A DNA stretch of 64,000 nt from Haloferax marinisediminis (GTDB taxonomy: Archaea > Halobacteriota > Halobacteria > Halobacteriales > Haloferacaceae): NCBI RefSeq assembly GCF_009674585.1, contig NZ_WKJP01000001.1, positions 1,240,001-1,304,000 on the forward strand. Reading direction: 5' to 3'. The notes beneath the pieces are model-generated. The model was not told the DNA's origin. It did not search any database and was given only the letters and a program-made list of their open reading frames with translations. The stretch's first letter is position 1. The number at the start of each line of letters is the position of its first letter. The position numbers were made by a program, and so were the translations under genes. Below are positions 33,747 through 45,499 of the stretch, piece after piece.

Positions 33747-35861
33747 ATGGCGACTCCTGACAAGAACTCCAAGACAGACCGCTACGATGGCGAGGAATCG
33801 TTCCGAGCAGACGGCTCGGGCCGTGCAGCACTGATCCCAACGACCGGCCCAGACGCGATGGCTACGCGTGCGAAGGAACTCCCAGTTCCGGCGGCAGACC
33901 GCATCGAGTACGGCCCCGCCGACGTCGAGTCCGAACACGAAGAGCTGGACGACGAAGAGACCGAGGCCCCCGAGACACTCCGTGAGGCAGTCCTCCGCGA
34001 GGTCAAGGCGTTCTTCGCAGACATCGACGACGAAACCGCGTTCGCACCGACACCGTCTGACCAATTCATCGAAGAGAACTTCTTCGACTTCTCCTTCCTC
34101 GAAGGCGTCGAAGACGTCGAACACTACTGGGTGAACAAACCCTTCGCGTTCGTCTCGATTCTCTACGACCACAAACAGCGAGAACACCGCTACCACGTGA
34201 GCGAACCGATCCTCGACCCCTTCGAGACGTTCGTCCGCGACGACCTGACGAAGATTCTCCGAAACAGCCTGCTGTACCGCGACCTCGACCACGATGGCGA
34301 CCGCGAAGAGGTGTTCGACGACGAGGCACGCGAGATTATCTCTGAGCACGCCGCGACGGTCGAAGATGGCTCGCTCTGGAAGTTGTTCTACTTCCTGCTT
34401 CGCGACTTCATCCACTTCGGTCGTATCGACCCCGTGATGCGCGACCCCGGAATCGAAGACATCTCGTGTGACGGTGACGGCGTCCCAGTGTACATCTTCC
34501 ACGGTGTCTACCGCGACATGCCGACGAACGTCGTCTTCGACGACGGCGACCTCTCGTCGTACACCATCCGCCTCGCCCAACGCGCAGGCAAGCAGGTGAC
34601 CGTCTCCGACCCGCTCGTCGACGCGAGTCTCCCTGACGGCTCTCGCGTCCAACTGACGCTCGGCTCCGATATCGCGACCCGTGGGTCGAACTTCACCATC
34701 CGGAAGTTCGCAGACGAACCGCTGTCGCCAGTCGACCTCGTCCGCTGGAACACCTTCAGCGTCGAACAGATGGCGTACTTCTGGCTCGCCATCGAGAACA
34801 ACCGCTCGCTCATCTTCGCGGGTGGCACGGGGTCTGGAAAGACCACCTCGATGAACGCAGTGTCGTTCTTCGTCCCCGGACACGCGAAGGTCGTCTCTAT
34901 CGAGGACACGCGTGAAATCACCCTCCCGCACGACAACTGGATTCAGTCGGTCACCCGTGACACCTTCACGGCCGACGGTCGCGGCGAAGTGTCGATGTAC
35001 GCGCTCTTGCAGGCCGCCCTTCGACAGCGCCCCGAGTATCTCCTCGTCGGTGAGATTCGGACCGAAGAACGCGTCGCACTGACGTTCTTCCACTCGATAG
35101 CGACGGGCCACACCGCCTACACGACGTTCCACGCGGACTCCTCGCAAGGGGTCGTCCACCGGATGCGGAACGAACCGCTCGGCGTGCCCGCACAGATGCT
35201 GTCCGACCTCGACATCATCTCCGTCCAGAAGCAGATTCACCTCGACGGCGACCGGACGCGACGCAACATCGCAGTCACCGAAATCACCGGCGTCGACGAA
35301 GACGGTGAGGTCGAACTCCGCGACGTGTTCAAGCGCAACCCGACGAACGACGCGCACGAACGCGTGGGCGAGTCGAAGATTCTCGACGAAATCGCGGCCG
35401 AACGCGGCTGGACCCAAGCCGACCTCCAGTACGAACTGGACATCCGTGCCGACGTACTCCGCTTCATCGCTGCGCAGGGAATCGACGACTACCGCGCCGT
35501 GTCGGCGATGATTCGCCGGTTCGAACGCGACCGTGAGGGCCTCCTCGCCCACGTCTACGCAGAAACGTCCCTCGCAACCGTCGAGCCAGACGACGAAGCA
35601 GACAGCGGCGAATCCGCTGCCGATACTGAGTTCGACGAATCGCTCGACGACGAGGAACTCGCCGCCGAGGCAGAAGAAATCCTCTCTGACCTCTTCGACA
35701 TCGAGGTCGGCGACGCCGACGACTCCACGTCTGCTGACGACGCCGACGACGTCGAGACTGACGCTGCGACCACCGAGGAGACGTCCGAGGAAGACGCTGC
35801 GGCGTCTGCTGATGACGACGTGACCAACGGTTCCGACTCGGAGGACGACGATGCCCGCTGA
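33747..35861 (+). CDS. Type IV pilus/secretion-type ATPase (PilB/TadA/GspE family)
   Basis: It is the motor ATPase that drives assembly of pilin-like fibres. The 704-residue protein has a variable acidic N-terminal part (residues 1-150), then the secretion-ATPase core. Walker A is FAGGTGSGKTTSMNAV (about 357-372), the Asp box is IEDTREITLPHDN, the Walker B region is YLLVGEIRTEERVALTFFHS, and the His box is HTAYTTFHADSSQG. The last ~100 residues are acidic low complexity. The chosen start MATPDKNSKTDRYDGEES fits haloarchaeal PilB proteins. It overlaps pilC by 11 bases, so they are translationally coupled. Confidence 0.9.
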   Translation: MATPDKNSKTDRYDGEESFRADGSGRAALIPTTGPDAMATRAKELPVPAADRIEYGPADVESEHEELDDEETEAPETLREAVLREVKAFFADIDDETAFAPTPSDQFIEENFFDFSFLEGVEDVEHYWVNKPFAFVSILYDHKQREHRYHVSEPILDPFETFVRDDLTKILRNSLLYRDLDHDGDREEVFDDEAREIISEHAATVEDGSLWKLFYFLLRDFIHFGRIDPVMRDPGIEDISCDGDGVPVYIFHGVYRDMPTNVVFDDGDLSSYTIRLAQRAGKQVTVSDPLVDASLPDGSRVQLTLGSDIATRGSNFTIRKFADEPLSPVDLVRWNTFSVEQMAYFWLAIENNRSLIFAGGTGSGKTTSMNAVSFFVPGHAKVVSIEDTREITLPHDNWIQSVTRDTFTADGRGEVSMYALLQAALRQRPEYLLVGEIRTEERVALTFFHSIATGHTAYTTFHADSSQGVVHRMRNEPLGVPAQMLSDLDIISVQKQIHLDGDRTRRNIAVTEITGVDEDGEVELRDVFKRNPTNDAHERVGESKILDEIAAERGWTQADLQYELDIRADVLRFIAAQGIDDYRAVSAMIRRFERDREGLLAHVYAETSLATVEPDDEADSGESAADTEFDESLDDEELAAEAEEILSDLFDIEVGDADDSTSADDADDVETDAATTEETSEEDAAASADDDVTNGSDSEDDDAR

Positions 35862-37980
35862 TTCGTCGTCCTCGGTGCCGCTGCCCGACTACGAGGTCGA
35901 GCAGTACTTCCCACGCGAACACTTCGACGAATCGCCGGAAGACGTCCGTCGCCTCCGCGAGCGCTACGGGTACGTTCGCACGTACTTCAAGCGCCACCCT
36001 GCGGGACACCGTGACCTCCAGCGCTGGCTGAACCAGACGCGCATCGGGATGACCTACGACGTCTACCTCACGCAGTCTGTCAAACTGGCGCTCGTCGCTG
36101 CAGCTATCGGGTCACTCCTCGGTATCGCCGTGACGTTCGTCCTCGTGCAGATGGGCGTGCTGGCAAACGCCAGCAGTCCAGTGAGCTTTGGTGCTGGCTA
36201 CGGTCTCATCGCACCGCTCCTCCCGTACAAGGTTCCCATCCTCGGGACCCTTCTCGTCCTCCTCCTCGGAGGACTGTTCGGCGCCGGAACGTACTACGCG
36301 CGCTACTACACTCCGCGGAGTCGCGCCGAGATGCGTGGCCGAAGTGTGGACATCCTGCTCCCGCACGCCATCGTCTACATGTACGCCCTCAGCCACGGTG
36401 GGATGAGCTTCCTCGAAGTCATCCGCTCTGTGGCCGACGCACCCGACTACGGCGAAGTGTCACGCGAGTTCGAAATGATCGACCGCGACATGGACCTGTT
36501 CGGCAACGACCTGTTCACGGCCCTCCGCAACGCGCGGAACCTGACTCCGTCGCTCAACTTCGAGCAGTTCCTCGACGACTTACTCTCGGTTCTCGACTCC
36601 GGTGGCGACGTCACCGCGTTCTTGGACCGCGAGTCGTCTACCTACCTCGAAGAAGCACGTGACGAACAAGAGGACTTCATCGAGACGCTCTCGATGCTCT
36701 CTGAGGTGTTCGTCGCGGCGTTCGTCGCCGCACCACTGCTGCTCATCGTCACCCTGATGGTCATCAGTTTCCTCGGCGGCAACACGCTCGTCCAACTGTA
36801 CGCGCTGAACTACCTCATCTTCCCACTGGGGATGGCGTTGTTCTTGCTCCTCATCGACGTGTTGTCGGCCCCGTACACGCAAGATACGGTCCAGACGAAA
36901 CACGACGTGACGATCGTCGAAGAGCTTTGGATGGCCCTCCACGAGTTCGCCGCCGTCGCTCGGCGTGAACTCCAGCGCGCCCGTGAGGAACGCTGGGGAA
37001 GCGACGACGCAATCGCCTCCGACGGCGGCGTCGTCGACGCCCGACTCGACCACTACCGCCGCGCGAACGCGGTCAGCACTCTCCGGGAACTCGTCGGCGA
37101 CCCACTGGACATCATGCGCCGTCAGCCGTACCTCTCGGCGCTTATCACGGTGCCAATCGCAGTCGTCGCCCCCATCGTCGCCATCGCGCTCGGTCTCGCG
37201 ACGCCGAGCATCGACGCCATGCTGGCCGACCCGTACAACACGACGGTTTGGCTGGCTGTGCTCCCGTTCGCCATCGTCGCCGTCCCGCTCACCGTGTTCC
37301 ACGAGCTTCGAACTCGCCGCGAGCGAACTCTCGAACGACGCTTCCCAGACACGCTCAACCTGCTGTCGAGCGCGAACCAGATGGGCATCCCGCTCGTCGA
37401 GTCGCTCGCACTCGTCTCTCGGTGGTCGAGCGGCATCCTCGCGGACGAACTCCGCGCGCTCCGAAACGACATCCGCTGGAACTACGACGCGCACTCGGCG
37501 CTCATGGCCTTCGCAAGCCGCCTCGGCGTTCCACAGCTCTCGCGGGTCATCCGCCTCATCGCGAGCGGTGGCCGGACGAGTGGTGACCTCTCGCGCGTCC
37601 TCAGCGTCGCTGCCGAAGACACGCGAAACCGATACAAACTGGAGAAGTCCCGCCGTCGCGCGATGGGTTCGTACATCGCCATCGTCGTCATGGGATACCT
37701 CGTCTACCTGTTCGTCATCCTGATGCTGGGTGCGAGTTACCTCGCGCCCCTCGCCGAGATGACTGCGCCCACGACGGCGTCGAACGGGCAAGCACTCCCC
37801 ATCGGCATCGGCTCCGTCCCAATCGACAACTTCCACGTGGTGTTCCTCCACTCCGCGCTCATCCAGGCGGTCGGGAGTGGCCTCCTCGCTGGCAAACTGG
37901 CCGACAACAGTGCCCTCAGTGGCCTGAAGTACGCCCTCGGACTGTCTGCGCTGGCGCTCATCGCCTTCGCATTGGTGTAA
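35851..37980 (+). CDS. Type IV pilus/secretion-type membrane platform protein (PilC/TadC/GspF family)
   Basis: This 709-residue polytopic membrane protein forms the platform on which pilins assemble. It has two T2SSF-like domains: one around residues 165-330, with AIVYMYALSHGGMSFLEVIR, and a second around 490-650, with RRFPDTLNLLSSANQMGIPL. Each is followed by paired membrane segments (for example FVAAPLLLIVTLMVISFLGG and MGSYIAIVVMGYLVYLFVIL). Its ATG lies 11 bases before the end of the ATPase frame. It is the second gene of a four-gene operon and should be the partner of that ATPase. Confidence 0.9.
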   Translation: MPADSSSSVPLPDYEVEQYFPREHFDESPEDVRRLRERYGYVRTYFKRHPAGHRDLQRWLNQTRIGMTYDVYLTQSVKLALVAAAIGSLLGIAVTFVLVQMGVLANASSPVSFGAGYGLIAPLLPYKVPILGTLLVLLLGGLFGAGTYYARYYTPRSRAEMRGRSVDILLPHAIVYMYALSHGGMSFLEVIRSVADAPDYGEVSREFEMIDRDMDLFGNDLFTALRNARNLTPSLNFEQFLDDLLSVLDSGGDVTAFLDRESSTYLEEARDEQEDFIETLSMLSEVFVAAFVAAPLLLIVTLMVISFLGGNTLVQLYALNYLIFPLGMALFLLLIDVLSAPYTQDTVQTKHDVTIVEELWMALHEFAAVARRELQRAREERWGSDDAIASDGGVVDARLDHYRRANAVSTLRELVGDPLDIMRRQPYLSALITVPIAVVAPIVAIALGLATPSIDAMLADPYNTTVWLAVLPFAIVAVPLTVFHELRTRRERTLERRFPDTLNLLSSANQMGIPLVESLALVSRWSSGILADELRALRNDIRWNYDAHSALMAFASRLGVPQLSRVIRLIASGGRTSGDLSRVLSVAAEDTRNRYKLEKSRRRAMGSYIAIVVMGYLVYLFVILMLGASYLAPLAEMTAPTTASNGQALPIGIGSVPIDNFHVVFLHSALIQAVGSGLLAGKLADNSALSGLKYALGLSALALIAFALV

Positions 37981-37984
37981 ATCC

Positions 37985-40168
37985 ATGACTCACAAAATCC
38001 CCTCCAAACACACACAATCGCCACTCAGGCACGTATCGCGCGGGCTCGTCGCACGCTTCGGGAGCGACGGCTCGCACCTCCGAACCGACCAGCGAGGTGC
38101 ATCTGCCATCCTCGGGACGATGTTCGCGTTCGCACTCGTCGTCTCCGTCGTCGCCATGGTGCAGGTCTCGGCGGTTCCCGCGTGGAACCAACAGACCGAG
38201 TTCGAACACCTCCAGACCGTCGAGAGCGAATTCGCCATCTTCGACGAGAACGTCGCCAAGGCTGCTGACGGGCACGCAACCCGGTCGACCATCGACGCCG
38301 GCGTCGATTACCCGACTCGGGCGCTGTTCCTCTCGCCTGCAGCAGGCTCCGGAACCCTCCGAACGACGGACGAAGCGGCCGCGAGCATCACGGGTGCCGT
38401 CGCGACCGGCGAGACCGGAACGTACTGGGACAGTACCGAACACACCTTCGACACCCGTTCGTTCGTCTACCAGCCTGACTACCGTTACATGCAGGAAAAC
38501 CCAGCGCTCGTCCACGAAGGCGTCTCGCAGTACACTGCCTACTCGTCGGGCGAAGTCGGTGCGACGCAGTCGCTCGTCGACGGCACTAAAATCTCACTCG
38601 TGCTGTTCGAGGGTGACATCAACGTCGGCACCGGTGAGTCGACGACCTTCGGTGTCGTTCCACTGAGCGCTGGAACCGACTACATCACGGTCACGGACAC
38701 GGGCACGCCGATTACCATCTCCGTGCCGACTCGGCTCTCCAACGAGACGTGGCACGACCTCCTCGCTGACGAACCCAACGTCCAGTCGATTACGTACACG
38801 AACGGGACGGACTACAACACCCTGACCGTCGAACTCGTGCCCGGAAAGACGTACGACCTGCAACTCTCGCGCGTCGGACTCGACACGGCGGGAATCCAAC
38901 AGGAGCCAGCCTACATCGTCGATGTCGAGGGTGACGACGCCGTCGTTCCACCCGGAGCGACACACCGCGTCACTGTCGAAGTACGCGATGCACAGAACAA
39001 CCCAGTTCCGAACGCTGTCGTCAAGGCGAGTCCAGGACTGACCGACGAGAGCGGTCGCATCGAAGCCCGTGACACCGGAACAATCTCGACTGTCACCGAC
39101 GCCAATGGCCGTGCGACGTTCACCTACTCGGCGACGGGCAGCATCGACGGTGTCGTCTCCGACGAGTTCGACATCGTCGTCGAAGACTCGTCAGGAACCG
39201 AGGTCGACCGGATGACCTTCGACGTGCAACTCCGTGTCGGCGGTACCTCCGACCCCCTCCGTGGGTTGGTCGCTGACATCGACGACCCCGGCTTCGTGTA
39301 CGCTGACGTGGACGGAAACGGTGAGTTCGACGGGTCTGACTACCAGGTCTCCAACACTGGAACCGGCGACGCCGTCGTCTACGATGCAGGCTCCGACAGA
39401 CTCGTGGTTCCCCCGAGCGTTGGGACCATCTTCTCTAACGAGAGCGTCTCCCTCTCTGGCAACGGTGTGTCGCTCCACGTCGACGTCGTGACCTCCAGTT
39501 CGAGTTCGGGTGACATCACCATCGACGCACGGAGTGGGTCCGTCGCTGGCGTGGGTGTCAGTATCTCCTCGGTACAGAAGGGGAACATCCTCGTCCAAGC
39601 AGCCGACGAAATCGACATCTCGGGTGCGTCGGTCAACCAGGCCGACGGGTCGATAACGGTGACCGCTGATGGTGACGTCGACATCGACAATGCAGGGTTG
39701 ACGACCATCCAATCGGACACGATAACCGTCGAGTCGACTAGTGGGTTCGTCAGCGCTCGGAGCGCCGACATCAGTGGAAACGGAGACGTCGCAGTGGACG
39801 GCGCTACGGGCGTCGACCTGACAGGCGGTGGCCTGTCGAGCGTCAAAGACACCCGTGGTCTGTCCGTCGGGTCGTCGAGTGGTGGCGTCAACCTCAACGG
39901 TGTCGTCATGCTCGGTGACGGCGGCATCGACGTGACCGCAGAGAACAACATCTACGTCGTCGGTGCCAACATCGCGTCGTCGAAAGGGAACGCCAACAGC
40001 GACGTCATCATCACGTCGAATTCCGGGATGGTGAGTGGTCGCGAAGCGGCACTCTCCGCGAAGCACGACATCGTCATCACCGCAGCGACGCGCATCTCTC
40101 TGCCGCAGTCGTCGCTAGAAGACAGGGACAACTCCCCTGAACTGAACGCACCCACGGTGGAGGTCTGA
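37985..40168 (+). CDS. Very large pilin-like surface protein with Ig-like and beta-helix-like regions
   Basis: The 727-residue protein starts four bases after the platform gene. Residues 36-67 are an archaeal pilin-type N-terminus (TDQRGASAILGTMFAFALVV): a glycine before a hydrophobic helix, the kind of site cut by the PibD prepilin peptidase. The next ~240 residues are shared with the following gene. An Ig-like (Big_1-like) domain follows (HRVTVEVRDAQNNPVPNAVV). From about 430 to the end come repeated beta-strand units rich in D, G, S and V (SITVTADGDVDIDNAGL, DITIDARSGSVAGVGVS), like a parallel beta-helix adhesin. It is probably a displayed subunit or adhesin. Confidence 0.8.
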   Translation: MTHKIPSKHTQSPLRHVSRGLVARFGSDGSHLRTDQRGASAILGTMFAFALVVSVVAMVQVSAVPAWNQQTEFEHLQTVESEFAIFDENVAKAADGHATRSTIDAGVDYPTRALFLSPAAGSGTLRTTDEAAASITGAVATGETGTYWDSTEHTFDTRSFVYQPDYRYMQENPALVHEGVSQYTAYSSGEVGATQSLVDGTKISLVLFEGDINVGTGESTTFGVVPLSAGTDYITVTDTGTPITISVPTRLSNETWHDLLADEPNVQSITYTNGTDYNTLTVELVPGKTYDLQLSRVGLDTAGIQQEPAYIVDVEGDDAVVPPGATHRVTVEVRDAQNNPVPNAVVKASPGLTDESGRIEARDTGTISTVTDANGRATFTYSATGSIDGVVSDEFDIVVEDSSGTEVDRMTFDVQLRVGGTSDPLRGLVADIDDPGFVYADVDGNGEFDGSDYQVSNTGTGDAVVYDAGSDRLVVPPSVGTIFSNESVSLSGNGVSLHVDVVTSSSSSGDITIDARSGSVAGVGVSISSVQKGNILVQAADEIDISGASVNQADGSITVTADGDVDIDNAGLTTIQSDTITVESTSGFVSARSADISGNGDVAVDGATGVDLTGGGLSSVKDTRGLSVGSSSGGVNLNGVVMLGDGGIDVTAENNIYVVGANIASSKGNANSDVIITSNSGMVSGREAALSAKHDIVITAATRISLPQSSLEDRDNSPELNAPTVEV

Positions 40169-40169
40169 G

Positions 40170-42020
40170 ATGCCACGGTTCGCGACGCTATCTCGGTTCA
40201 CGAAACAGACGCGCGGGACGTCCGAGATCCTCGGCCTCGTCTTCGCGTTCGGCCTCGTCATCTCGGTCATCGCCATCGGCCAACTCGCGGGGGCACCCGC
40301 GTGGACTGCTGGGGACGAAGCGGACCACAGCGCGAGCGTCTCTTCCGACATCGCGTCACTCGATGCCGCAATCTTCCGGAGTTCTGGCACCGACGCCAGT
40401 GGTCGGGTCGCAATCGACGCGGACGTGTCGTACCCCGAGCGATACCTCGTGGTGTCGCCCCCCGGGAGCGTCGGTAGTTTCCACGTCGACGGAACCGACA
40501 CCGTGACCATCACAAACGTGACGGCGGCCGGTCCCGAGTCGGTGTTCTGGGACGGAACCAACCGAACCTACACGACGACGTCCATCGTCTACAAACCCGA
40601 CTACGCCGAACGTGACGAGGCCACGTTGGTCATCGAAAGCGGTGTCTCGTACCTCGAAAACGACGGGTCTGCAGTCGTTCACCGCCAGTCTCTCGTCCGT
40701 GGAACCGACGTCTCGCTCGTCTTCTTCGAAGGTGAGCTAGACGGCCACACGACGGGTGGCGAAACGGTGTCGCTGTCACCGATTTCGGTCCGAACCGAAA
40801 TCCTCCCAGTATACAACGAGGACGAACCGATTCGCATCACCGTACCGACGTTCCTGCCAGAAGACGACTGGCGTGACCTCATGGACGAGGAACCGCACGC
40901 GTCAGTCGTCTCCTACACGACGGCCGGTGACCACGCCACCGTGACCATCGAACTCGAAGCAGGCGTCATGTACAACGTCCGTGTCGCTCGGCTCGGCGTC
41001 GGCGACCCCGTCAACCCCGACCCGGGTGCGTACGTCGTCACTGAAGCGGGTGAAGATGCTGCCGTCCCTGCTGGTGGCCGTGAGACGCTCGCTGTCCGCG
41101 TGTTCGACCAGTACGGGGCACCCGTCGCAGGAGCGACGGTCACGGCACCGTCGTCGACACCGCTCGGTGGAACCGTCGCCCCACTCGGTGGAGCGACTAC
41201 CGTCACCGACGAGACGGGCCGTGCTCGGTTCTCGTACACCGCTCCCGAGGGAGTCACTGACATCGACCACGACACCGTCACCATCACGCTCGCCGGTGCG
41301 AGTGGCCCCGGTTCGACGGTGACTATCCCGTTGGAAGTCCGTGGTGCCGGTGAGACGTACGAGGTTCGGAACGTGGCGATGACGCCAACCGCGACGCCGA
41401 CACCCACCCCGACTCCGACCCCAACGCCCACCCCAACAGCGACGCCAACTCCAACGCCCACCCCAACAGCGACACCCACCCCAACAGCGACACCCACCCC
41501 AACGCCGACCCCAGAAGACAGCTTCGTCATCGACGATGGCTCGGTCGTTCCCTCTGTCGACTTCGTAGGTGACCTCGAACTGCTCGGAAGCGCAATCAAA
41601 CAAGGCACCACGGACGTCCCTGTGACGGTGTCGTTCGTCGCCGGCGGTGACACACACTCACCGTCGGAGTGGGACAACGTCAACGATGGTCAGCAGCACT
41701 CGTTCACCCTGAATGGACACGGTGGAGACGTGATATCCATCGTCGCCGCCGCCGAAGGATACGTCACTGCTGATTCCTCGGCTGACGCACAGCAGGTCGC
41801 CGTCCTTCGAAACGGTGACCCAGTCCCCGATATCAAGGGGTACGATGGTCAGCAGGACGCAGAGGAGTTCGTCGCCCCGTACATCAGCGACGACGGACAA
41901 ACGATGGAACTGGCAGACAACCAGGTCATCTTCCTGTTCGAACTGGGGTCGACGAACCCGAGCGACAACGCCTTCGACATGCAGGACGCCGTCATCCTCG
42001 TGACGCTCTGGGAAGCGTAA
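40170..42020 (+). CDS. Second large pilin-like surface protein with TP-rich linker
   Basis: It begins one base after the previous stop. The N-terminus (FTKQTRGTSEILGLVFAFGL, then VISVIAIGQLAGAPAW) again is pilin-like. Residues about 50-350 are paralogous to the previous protein: FWDGTNRTYTTTSIVYKPDY parallels YWDSTEHTFDTRSFVYQPDY, and both have a Big_1-like Ig segment (RETLAVRVFDQYGAPVAGAT). A Thr-Pro-repeat linker (about residues 407-447) follows, then a C-terminal domain of ~165 residues ending in NAFDMQDAVILVTLWEA. The TP linker is probably O-glycosylated and crosses the S-layer. Fourth gene of the operon. Confidence 0.8.
   Translation: MPRFATLSRFTKQTRGTSEILGLVFAFGLVISVIAIGQLAGAPAWTAGDEADHSASVSSDIASLDAAIFRSSGTDASGRVAIDADVSYPERYLVVSPPGSVGSFHVDGTDTVTITNVTAAGPESVFWDGTNRTYTTTSIVYKPDYAERDEATLVIESGVSYLENDGSAVVHRQSLVRGTDVSLVFFEGELDGHTTGGETVSLSPISVRTEILPVYNEDEPIRITVPTFLPEDDWRDLMDEEPHASVVSYTTAGDHATVTIELEAGVMYNVRVARLGVGDPVNPDPGAYVVTEAGEDAAVPAGGRETLAVRVFDQYGAPVAGATVTAPSSTPLGGTVAPLGGATTVTDETGRARFSYTAPEGVTDIDHDTVTITLAGASGPGSTVTIPLEVRGAGETYEVRNVAMTPTATPTPTPTPTPTPTPTATPTPTPTPTATPTPTATPTPTPTPEDSFVIDDGSVVPSVDFVGDLELLGSAIKQGTTDVPVTVSFVAGGDTHSPSEWDNVNDGQQHSFTLNGHGGDVISIVAAAEGYVTADSSADAQQVAVLRNGDPVPDIKGYDGQQDAEEFVAPYISDDGQTMELADNQVIFLFELGSTNPSDNAFDMQDAVILVTLWEA
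41386..41515 (+). repeat. Thr-Pro codon repeat (surface-protein linker)
   Basis: About 130 bases of near-repeating ACCCC/AACGCC/GACGCC units encode a run of Thr-Pro-Ala residues. It is an in-frame protein linker, not a genomic tandem array; slippage here would change linker length. Confidence 0.7.
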
Positions 42021-43435: not shown

Positions 43436-45118
43436 CTAGCTCTCGCTCGACGTTTCGTTCGTCTCGACAGTCACTTCCGCATTGTCAGTGACTGGCGCGC
43501 CGTTTGCCGTGTACGGGCCATCGTCTGCTCCCTCGGAGCTGACGAAGTCGAACTGTTCGTTACCGTTGCTGTCGAAGTGCGGCATCGCCGTGAGCGTCGC
43601 GTTCTCCGTCAGTGGTTCGTCGAGCGTTACTGCGATATCCTCCTGTTCACCGGCCGAGAGGTATCCGGATGCACCGATGACAGCACCGCTCTCGTCGTGG
43701 ATGACGATGAATCCACCTTCAGAGAGGGTCGCACTCGCCACGAGCACTGCAACTCCGGCGGTCGACTGGTCGTTGAACTGGACGGACGCGGTCGCCTCTT
43801 CAGCAGGCGGTGCTTCAGTGGTTGGTTCTTCAGTCGTTGGCTCTTCGGTCGTAGGTGCTTCAGTGGTTGGTTCCTCGGTGGTTGGCGTTGCCGTCGGCGT
43901 CGCGGTTGGCGTCGGCTCAGCAGCCCCGACAATCACGTTGGCGGTGTCAGTGACTGGTGCACCATTCATCGTGTACGGACCATCCTCAGCCCCTTCGGAC
44001 GTGAGGAAGTCGAGTTGTTGGTTGTCGTTGGTGTCGAGGTGCGGCATCGCGGTGAGCGTCGCGTTCTCGGTCAACGGTTCGGCAAGGGTCACAGTCACGT
44101 TGGACTGGTCACCGGGTTCGAGGTACTCAGACGCACCGACGACGGCACCACTCGCGTCGTGGATTGCGATGAACCCCCCGGCAGAGAGGGTCGCACTCGT
44201 GACGGTAACGGTGGTTCCGTCAGAGGTTTGGTCGTCGAACTGCACAGATGCAGTCGGCTCTTCAGCCGGTGGTTCTGGTTCTGCTTGCGCAACGGTCACT
44301 GCGGCAGTGTCAGTGACGGGTGCACCATCGACCGTGTACGGACCATCCTCTGCTCCCTCGGACGTGAGGAAGTCGAGGACCTGGTTGTCGTTGGAGTCGA
44401 CGTGTGCCTGTGCGGTGAGCGTGGCGTTCTCGGTCAACGGTTCGGCGAGGGCCACAGTCACGTTGGACTGGTCACCGGGTTCGAGGTACTCGGTCGCGCC
44501 GAGCACGGATCCGCTCTCGTCGATAATTGCGATGTAGCCTCCGTCAGGGAGGGTCGCACTCGTGACAGTGACCGAGTCTCCGTCGGTCGTCTGGTCGTCG
44601 AACTGGACCGACGCAGTCGGGACAGGTTCACTGGAGACGGTGAGCGTCGTCAGTTCACCCATGTCCTGTGTCTCGACACCGTGGATGTAGGTGCCCTCTG
44701 GGAGTCCGGACGTGCTGACTTCGAAGGTCACCGTCTCGGTCTCGCCGGGGTTGAGTGCCCAGCCGATTCGCTCGACGACGTCACCTTCGAGCCGGAACTC
44801 GACGCACTGAATCATCGGTACGGAGTTCGGGTTCGTGATGTCGGCAGTCACCGTCACCGTGTCGCCGGGTTGGACCGTCGACGGTGCGGAGAGGTTACTC
44901 ACGTCGTACGACGCGAGTGAATCGTTCAGTGGATATGTACACTGCTGGCCCTGTGCTTGTTGTTGAACCTGCGCGTACTGTGTTCCAACAGCCTGCGAAT
45001 TTGGTCCACCAACCGCCTGTGTCGCCCCTTCAGGCGCCGCGAAGCCGATACCTGTCGCCGCCACAGTGACGACTGCAGCGATGAAAAGTATGGTCGCGAT
45101 GTGTATTCGTGTGTTCAT
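43436..45118 (-). CDS. Exported protein with three DUF7282-like repeats
   Basis: The 560-residue precursor begins with a hydrophobic signal (ILFIAAVVTVAATGIGFAAP). After a ~120-residue beta-rich domain (VQPGDTVTVTADITNPNSVP) come three repeats of about 95 residues. Each opens with ASVQFDDQ or ASVQFNDQ and closes with DGPYT.(N/D)GAPVTD; they match the DUF7282 pattern of haloarchaeal surface proteins. A Pro-Thr-Glu linker separates repeats two and three. The signal suggests Sec-type export. The function is unknown, but repeat architecture suggests binding or spacing on the cell surface. Confidence 0.82.
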   Translation of the reverse strand: MNTRIHIATILFIAAVVTVAATGIGFAAPEGATQAVGGPNSQAVGTQYAQVQQQAQGQQCTYPLNDSLASYDVSNLSAPSTVQPGDTVTVTADITNPNSVPMIQCVEFRLEGDVVERIGWALNPGETETVTFEVSTSGLPEGTYIHGVETQDMGELTTLTVSSEPVPTASVQFDDQTTDGDSVTVTSATLPDGGYIAIIDESGSVLGATEYLEPGDQSNVTVALAEPLTENATLTAQAHVDSNDNQVLDFLTSEGAEDGPYTVDGAPVTDTAAVTVAQAEPEPPAEEPTASVQFDDQTSDGTTVTVTSATLSAGGFIAIHDASGAVVGASEYLEPGDQSNVTVTLAEPLTENATLTAMPHLDTNDNQQLDFLTSEGAEDGPYTMNGAPVTDTANVIVGAAEPTPTATPTATPTTEEPTTEAPTTEEPTTEEPTTEAPPAEEATASVQFNDQSTAGVAVLVASATLSEGGFIVIHDESGAVIGASGYLSAGEQEDIAVTLDEPLTENATLTAMPHFDSNGNEQFDFVSSEGADDGPYTANGAPVTDNAEVTVETNETSSES

Positions 45119-45499
45119 GTGTCTGCAATGACAGACTACCCAGTCCACAGATAAAAGATGACGAGATTGTTTCACTATCTCGCTGACATAGCTGTTGGTT
45201 TACGTGACTGTGTTGCGAAGGTTAGTTGATGGTTGAGGCCTTCACGGGTGCGTATTCGGGGCTCTTTGTGATTTTCCAGTATCAATGATTGTTTCTCTCA
45301 GACTGTTTCGATTAACTGTCATTGTGTGGATATAATTCGGGGATTTGACACTCTCTCGTCACTTTATTAAGAGTATCTTGACAAATGAACTGACGAGTTT
45401 CGGTGACTCTTTGCTCGGTGGATATGTGCTTCGTCTCCACTGACCAGAGCGATACACGAAAGCCGAGCAACTCCTTCAGCACCGTCGAGAGAATGGATA

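Follow-up and report, generated by a model that had tools for sequence, protein, structure and literature searches.

The closest described relatives of the locus examined in this study are the PilB-PilC operons of haloarchaea (clade 2 of Makarova et al. 2016, PMC4858521), which include PilB3-C3, PilB4-C4 and PilB5-C5 of Haloferax volcanii, a species in which five or six pilB-C pairs are known (PMC6491452, PMC7921747). Large archaeal pilins have been mentioned previously (PMC4371748, PMC4858521), and in 2015 an H. volcanii operon combining PilB4-C4 with two comparatively large FlaFind-positive pilins was noted (PMC4371748); that operon is unmatched by sequence to the present locus, and no mention of HVO_2385-2388, the candidate H. 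volcanii locus number, was found in the literature consulted. Here we describe four contiguous genes, P1 to P4, located on the forward (+) strand at positions 33747-42020 of a 64,000-nucleotide stretch of the Haloferax marinisediminis genome (contig NZ_WKJP01000001.1, positions 1,240,001 to 1,304,000; the whole stretch is hereafter called the window). The gene order, class III signal sites, linkage of the pilins to their motor, predicted folds, gene duplication and block exchange between species were computed for this locus, which probably encodes a dedicated archaeal type IV pilus-like surface device displaying exchangeable adhesin heads.

Like the haloarchaeal PilB-PilC operons, the locus contains a PilB/VirB11 ATPase, a TadC/PilC platform, class III prepilins and a DUF7289-like region. 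It is unlike them in that P1 falls into a group of its own, distinct from the genome's PilB3- and PilB4-type ATPases, and in that it has no small pilin, its subunits being 616-727 amino acids (aa) long and carrying immunoglobulin (Ig)-like, solenoid and head domains. P1 (33747-35861, +) encodes a PilB-type assembly ATPase of the VirB11/T2SSE family (704 aa), which matched T2SSE (PF00437) with an E value of 7.8e-32 and 110.8 bits (cut-off 24.9) and also exceeded the cut-offs for PilB3_N (1.2e-8) and PilB3_C (7.1e-9); its ATG at 33747 is backed by orthologues with the N-terminus MA(S/T)PDKN. P2 (35851-37980, +), which overlaps P1 by 11 bases, encodes a PilC/TadC-type membrane platform (709 aa) matching T2SSF (PF00482) in two stretches (E 9.1e-34, 116.6 bits, cut-off 25.2), and its orthologues are 37-92% identical, the nearest in the scan of named species being those of Haloferax profundi (91%) and H. 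marinum (89%). P3 (37985-40168, +; 727 aa) follows P2 after a gap of 4, P4 (40170-42020, +; 616 aa) follows P3 after a gap of 1, and both encode large prepilin-like proteins. The four genes, their sizes and the spacings of -11, +4 and +1 bases given in the original prediction, which had been made from the sequence alone, matched exactly on re-check, and its identification of a PilB-type ATPase and a PilC-type platform is borne out by PF00437 and PF00482 scores far above their cut-offs. In the ATPase tree, P1 and its relatives beside large pilins in other genera (see below) form a group separate from the PilB3-, PilB4- and FlaI-type ATPases, with modest support (71). Membership of the archaellum was rejected, as P1 scored 375.9 bits with the FlaI model against a cut-off of 550; the genome carries an archaellum-type locus, including its ATPase, elsewhere (L010), together with a PilB3-type pair without pilins (L012) and a PilB4-type locus containing a run of small pilins (L011).

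P3 and P4 are paralogues, being 36% identical over 376 aa (E 6e-63), so that the common region of about 300 residues proposed in the original prediction proved real and somewhat longer. The prepilin-like N-terminal motifs proposed there are likewise present: P3 carries the class III motif RG|ASAILG, with a predicted site for the prepilin peptidase PibD at G38|A39, and P4 carries RG|TSEILG, with a predicted site at G16|T17. No gene in the 64-kb window other than P3 and P4 has the strict class III motif. Among the members of the large-pilin family that were examined, such a site preceding a hydrophobic segment was found in 82 of 83; position -2 was R in 80 of the 82 members with a site (S in the other two), while position -1 was G or A in all 82. 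The genome holds one prepilin peptidase gene (Peptidase_A24, PibD-type; 50.1 bits, cut-off 26.5). When the whole genome was ranked with the model of DUF7289 (PF23960), the family to which the 253-aa pilin of the genome's PilB4-type operon belongs, P3 placed third (26.2 bits) and P4 fourth (16 bits) against a cut-off of 27, and an orthologue (L045) passed this cut-off with 31.1 bits. The N-terminal 250 residues of P3 and P4 are, as judged by sequence, apparently distant relatives of DUF7289. Pilin_N (PF07790) scores were below the 25.2-bit cut-off for two orthologues (L048 and L045, 21.8-22.2 bits) and for a further relative (L117, 24.5 bits). Pilins of the family arCOG02911 have been described as all-beta proteins that vary in length and tend to be duplicated (PMC4858521); the family probably corresponds to DUF7289, and the similarity of P3 and P4 to DUF7289 would fit that description.

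In a comparison among Haloferax species, the interior and the exterior of the predicted device show different histories. Compared to the window, H. profundi and H. marinum are the nearest species in the CBS protein, P1, P2 and the downstream HAD gene, whereas the exposed part of P3 and the whole of P4 are nearer to more distant species than to these two. The P3 beta domain of the window is 78% identical to that of H. gibbonsii but only 61-63% identical to those of H. profundi and H. marinum, and the corresponding values for the P3 solenoid are 70% versus 40%. This switch in affinity lies between residues 75 and 100 of P3, with residues 1-75 following the phylogeny of the species and the motor: a tree of the motor and P3 residues 1-75 groups the window, H. 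profundi and H. marinum together (100/100), whereas a tree of P3 from residue 101 and P4 places H. marinum with H. larsenii (100/100) and the window with nine others (100/99), and the approximately unbiased (AU) test on the latter region rejects the motor's grouping (p 7e-7). The exact placement of H. marinum, H. profundi and H. larsenii in these trees should be read with caution because of long branches. The abrupt steps in DNA identity, however, are independent of the trees. The motor proteins of H. larsenii and H. elongans are 96-98% identical, but the exposed part of P3 is 56% and P4 45% identical; at the DNA level, identity is 90-100% up to P3 codon 79, approximately 45-80% across P3-P4, and back to 95-98% in the next conserved gene after P4. 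Fourfold-degenerate sites differ at 0.09-0.16 outside this block (0.13-0.16 in the motor genes) and at 0.47-0.52 inside it. Fast positive selection in place of recombination was rejected, as fourfold sites are near saturation inside the block and not outside; replacement rather than fast amino-acid change is therefore indicated. The exchange junction falls at a conserved EFxHL motif at the end of the H-domain half of the N-terminal helix, and in the window the exchanged block extends from P3 codon 76-100 to the end of P4 (38210-42017, +), as delimited by tree conflict and the drop in identity. Within Haloferax, the motor, the platform and the P3 H-domain are thus vertically inherited, and all exposed parts, from about P3 codon 79 to the end of P4, are replaced en bloc between species. 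This combination of a conserved motor and buried part with a swapped exterior would suit a fibre for surface recognition, the tips of which pass from one species to another.

Ups pilins of the Sulfolobales are small. Ups pili resemble the present system in having a dedicated motor, their own pilins and exposed regions that vary between species (PMC7064770), but differ in that the variation here is an en bloc replacement spanning two large genes. It is possible that, instead of adhering to surfaces in general, the variable exterior lets cells recognise partners of particular species for mating or DNA exchange, an explanation that concerns function and is compatible with a dedicated pilus-like device. 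The exposed pilin regions indeed differ in close species while the motor is constant, and in Sulfolobales specific Ups pilin regions decide which species aggregate (PMC7064770). However, a locus that is exchanged between species, as seen in the likeness of the H. larsenii cassette to the one in H. marinum, does not mark the species that carries it, and pibD is dispensable for mating in H. volcanii (PMC4371748); we consider a role in species recognition unlikely.

AlphaFold models built from alignments of 51 rows (P3) and 50 rows (P4) had a mean predicted local distance difference test (pLDDT) score of 87.6 for P3 and 81.3 for P4. P3 is predicted to begin with a single 54-residue helix resembling pilin alpha-1 (residues 41-94; 38105-38266, +), of which the first half is the conserved H-domain, followed by a DUF7289-like beta domain common to P4 (residues 99-299; 38279-38881, +), which is delimited by the P3/P4 alignment and the DUF7289 search as well as by AlphaFold, an Ig-like domain (residues 310-417; 38912-39235, +; Big_1 PF02369 at 1.7e-5, under the cut-off) and a C-terminal beta-solenoid (residues 438-726; 39296-40162, +) with coils of about 22 residues. 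The solenoid consists of short regular strands with high pLDDT, and its repeat is also seen in the sequence. At the start of the solenoid, a DVDGNGEFDGSD stretch (39287-39346 of the window, P3 residues ~435-454) resembles a calcium-binding dockerin or EF-hand-like loop. In P4, AlphaFold and Pfam indicate a single 60-residue helix (residues 15-74), a beta domain (78-277) and an Ig-like domain (288-391), together spanning 40212-41342 (+), after which come a Thr-Pro-rich linker (395-449; 41352-41516, +), predicted to be disordered from its sequence and a pLDDT below 50, and a head domain (452-614; 41523-42011, +) delimited by AlphaFold and sequence searches. These models agree with the original prediction of beta-helix-like repeats in P3 and of a Thr-Pro linker with an additional domain in P4, which is here predicted to be folded, and they contain the pilin-like N-terminal helix that it had proposed to look for. 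Foldseek matched the P3 Ig-like domain to the FdeC adhesin and the SbsB/SbsC S-layer proteins; with the whole P3 and P4 models it returned general Ig-like folds only, at low TM-scores that are uninformative on pilin or beta-helix likeness. A sequence search of solved structures gave no significant match for P3, and the P4 profile gave only weak matches, to an S-layer protein and, at the H-domain, to Natrinema PilA2.

The P4 head has no accepted Pfam match, and it also occurs at the C-terminus of PilA-type pilins of other genera (L155, L156, L158, L160 and L170), one of which (L155) exceeds the Pilin_N cut-off, and on a large pilin (L157), while the P4 proteins of H. marinum and H. larsenii are without it. 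Because it is found on PilA-type and large pilins alike, the head appears, from these matches, to move between pilin types. Weaker partial matches to the head were seen in two large secreted proteins (L164, L165).

The layout of P3 and P4, in which stalk-like Ig and solenoid domains come after one hydrophobic N-terminal segment, is also that of an anchored adhesin, and the two could be uncleaved membrane-anchored surface proteins that P1 and P2 secrete or insert, with no filament formed. An anchor would not need a cleavage site, however, yet 82 of the 83 family members examined have one at a fixed position ahead of this segment; the helix is 54-60 residues long, as in pilins, and no part of P3 other than the H-domain shares the inheritance of the motor. 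We regard this explanation as very improbable. The Sulfolobus bindosome (BasEF with sugar-binding proteins) is similar to the locus in combining large proteins bearing class III signals, a dedicated ATPase and platform, and surface display, but unlike the bindosome, no substrate-binding domain was found in P3 or P4. Membership of the bindosome was rejected, the BasE and BasF NCBIfam scores being 189.3 bits against a cut-off of 1000 and 49 bits against a cut-off of 1300, respectively.

The linkage between motor and large pilin extends beyond this genome. The operon was found in all 15 Haloferax genomes searched, with both P3 and P4 present in 12 of 12 named Haloferax operon loci. Outside Haloferax, a large pilin directly adjoins close relatives of P1 and P2, in the order PilB-PilC-large pilin, in Natrinema, Haloglomus, Halorarius, Halorubellus, Halomicroarcula, Halapricum, Halorientalis, Halosimplex, Salinigranum, Natronomonas and one Halorubrum; in these genera there is a single large pilin (~370-680 aa) per PilB-PilC, and the three-gene cassette is occasionally duplicated, with tandem double cassettes in Haloglomus halophilum (L105) and Halorarius halobius (L107). 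The pairing of large subunits that the original prediction proposed therefore holds in all Haloferax loci but not elsewhere, where the motor-linked loci examined have one per motor. In three Natronomonas loci (L117, L120, L125) the large pilin is divergent and immediately upstream of PilB/PilC. The pilin tree gathers the motor-linked sequences on one branch (97/84), which three stand-alone rows share and from which two of the divergently arranged Natronomonas pilins (L117, L120) are excluded. Within Haloferax, P3 and P4 form sister clades (100/99), so that their pairing is a duplication specific to that genus. In eight loci of Haloglomus, Natronomonas and Halorarius (L094-L098, L102, L103, L106), the large-pilin operon lies immediately downstream of a PilB3-type operon and is followed by two small genes, for a response-regulator-like protein and a partner. 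In Halomicroarcula sp. SYNS111 (L149), the ATPase, platform and large-pilin genes are spread over several frames, perhaps through decay or sequencing errors. A link to the Archaeoglobales was considered because platform proteins there match at 26-30%, and was rejected, as no large pilin of the P3/P4 family was found there save one 17-bit trace.

P3 relatives occur in 161 of 195 genomes of the haloarchaeal order, far more than carry a P1-type ATPase; the family is commoner than the original prediction supposed. The majority of the family are stand-alone genes (~500-1170 aa), mostly beside HMG-CoA synthase, including those at L062-L081 and one in this genome roughly 23 kb from the operon (L009). 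These share with P3 and P4 a common family, the N-terminal motif and the Ig-like domain, but differ in having no nearby ATPase or platform and in lying mostly on other tree branches. The proposal that large pilins always co-occur with this motor accordingly holds for orthologous PilB/PilC genes, which have a large pilin beside them in all Haloferax and nearly all other loci, but not for most homologues in the family; the failure concerns the family and not the motor-linked clade, because the stand-alone homologues lie mostly on other branches. A small pilin adjoins the stand-alone gene in 4 of 28 cases. The stand-alone gene of this genome (L009:4543-6180, -), the third family member in H. marinisediminis, is divergent from a small Pilin_N pilin (L009:6271-6705, +), and similar small pilins stand beside the stand-alone genes at L071, L075 and L080. 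At L072:8637-13206 (+), three tandem large-pilin genes occur in a stretch without PilB/PilC, the first of them bearing a P4-type head.

The chief rival to a dedicated device is that P3 and P4 are minor (tip or initiation) pilins placed as adhesins at the tip of a P1-P2 fibre that consists mainly of small PilA-type pilins encoded elsewhere. Several observations weigh for this explanation or otherwise against a dedicated device. Outside the operon, 11 Pilin_N matches exceed the cut-off, so that a supply of small PilA-type pilins exists in trans; in H. volcanii, the pilins assembled by PilB3-C3 likewise come from genes located elsewhere (PMC4858521, PMC6491452). DUF7289-like pilins (arCOG02911) have been modelled and proposed as minor pilins (PMC4858521), the P4 head is present on pilins with PilA-type H-domains, and the Pfam search gave no Pilin_N match for P3 or P4, whose scores also lie just under the DUF7289 cut-off. 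Haloglomus has two additional PilB/PilC copies (L114, L116) that no large pilin adjoins. In addition, the archaeal pilins known to form filaments are much smaller, which makes it uncertain that subunits of ~600-690 residues would stack. On the other hand, the H-domain of P3 and P4 is unlike the PilA type, and the three-gene cassette of motor and large pilin is passed on and duplicated as a whole with no recognisable small pilin in it, which would be odd if the main substrate were encoded elsewhere. None of the 65 motor-linked large pilins has a recognisable small class III pilin within 4 kb, as judged by a strict motif that detects the DUF7266/DUF7289-type pilins of the PilB4-type locus and misses the DUF7287/7288 type. 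A small major pilin in or near the operon is usual, though not universal, for archaeal type IV pili; its absence here, as originally observed, extends to the surroundings of all 65 as far as this motif detects such pilins. The joint duplication of motor and large pilin, together with the lack of a recognisable small pilin nearby, favours a dedicated device, with the proviso that this count would miss some pilin types; a minor-pilin role is conceivable but, in our estimation, rather less likely than not. The original proposal of a dedicated machine with large subunits is supported by the motor linkage, the predicted helix and solenoid, and the single prepilin peptidase, while its proposal of a self-contained fibre is weakened by the Pilin_N matches elsewhere and by the use of trans-encoded pilins in H. 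volcanii (PMC4858521).

If P1 to P4 form a dedicated type IV pilus-like device, which fits the anatomy of conserved motor, conserved buried helix and exchangeable exterior, P3 and P4 would be synthesised as prepilins and cut by PibD after RG, so that the mature proteins would start with the hydrophobic H-domain. The PilB ATPase (P1), acting on the PilC platform (P2), would then draw both proteins out of the membrane, and their long N-terminal helices would stack into a filament core or a short pseudopilus. Outside the core, a DUF7289-like beta domain would be exposed on each subunit, followed by an Ig-like spacer and then by an adhesin-like end that varies, namely the beta-solenoid in P3 and the Thr-Pro linker with the folded head in P4. 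These ends may contact surfaces, other cells or viruses, and because they would consequently be under pressure to change, they may be swapped as one block by interspecies recombination, while the parts that fit the motor (PilB, PilC and the H-domain) stay. We infer cleavage, assembly, the filament and its length, and adhesion or binding by P3 and P4. It is doubtful that the filament consists of mature P3 and P4 only (600-690 residues), with no small pilin and with the entire exposed coat swapped between species by recombination beginning just beyond the buried H-domain; if this were true, it would be a two-component fibre thick with solenoids and heads, in which the motor and core are conserved and the coats they bear can be exchanged.

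Convergent with the pilus operon, positions 43436-45175 (-) of the window encode a secreted protein that has three DUF7282 repeats plus a linker rich in Thr and Pro; the gene in the same place in other Haloferax is called at ~317-628 aa, suggesting variation in repeat number.

In the literature found, the clade of three-gene cassettes, the Haloferax duplication, the common mobile head and the en bloc exchange of exposed parts are undescribed. These findings define a recognisable variant of the haloarchaeal type IV pilus, the PilB-PilC-large pilin three-gene cassette, and set this motor-linked cassette apart from the commoner stand-alone large-pilin family. What is at stake is whether the heads bind surfaces, viruses or partner cells and whether very large pilins can form a filament; with near-identical motors and very different pilin exteriors, H. 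larsenii and H. elongans constitute a natural experiment.

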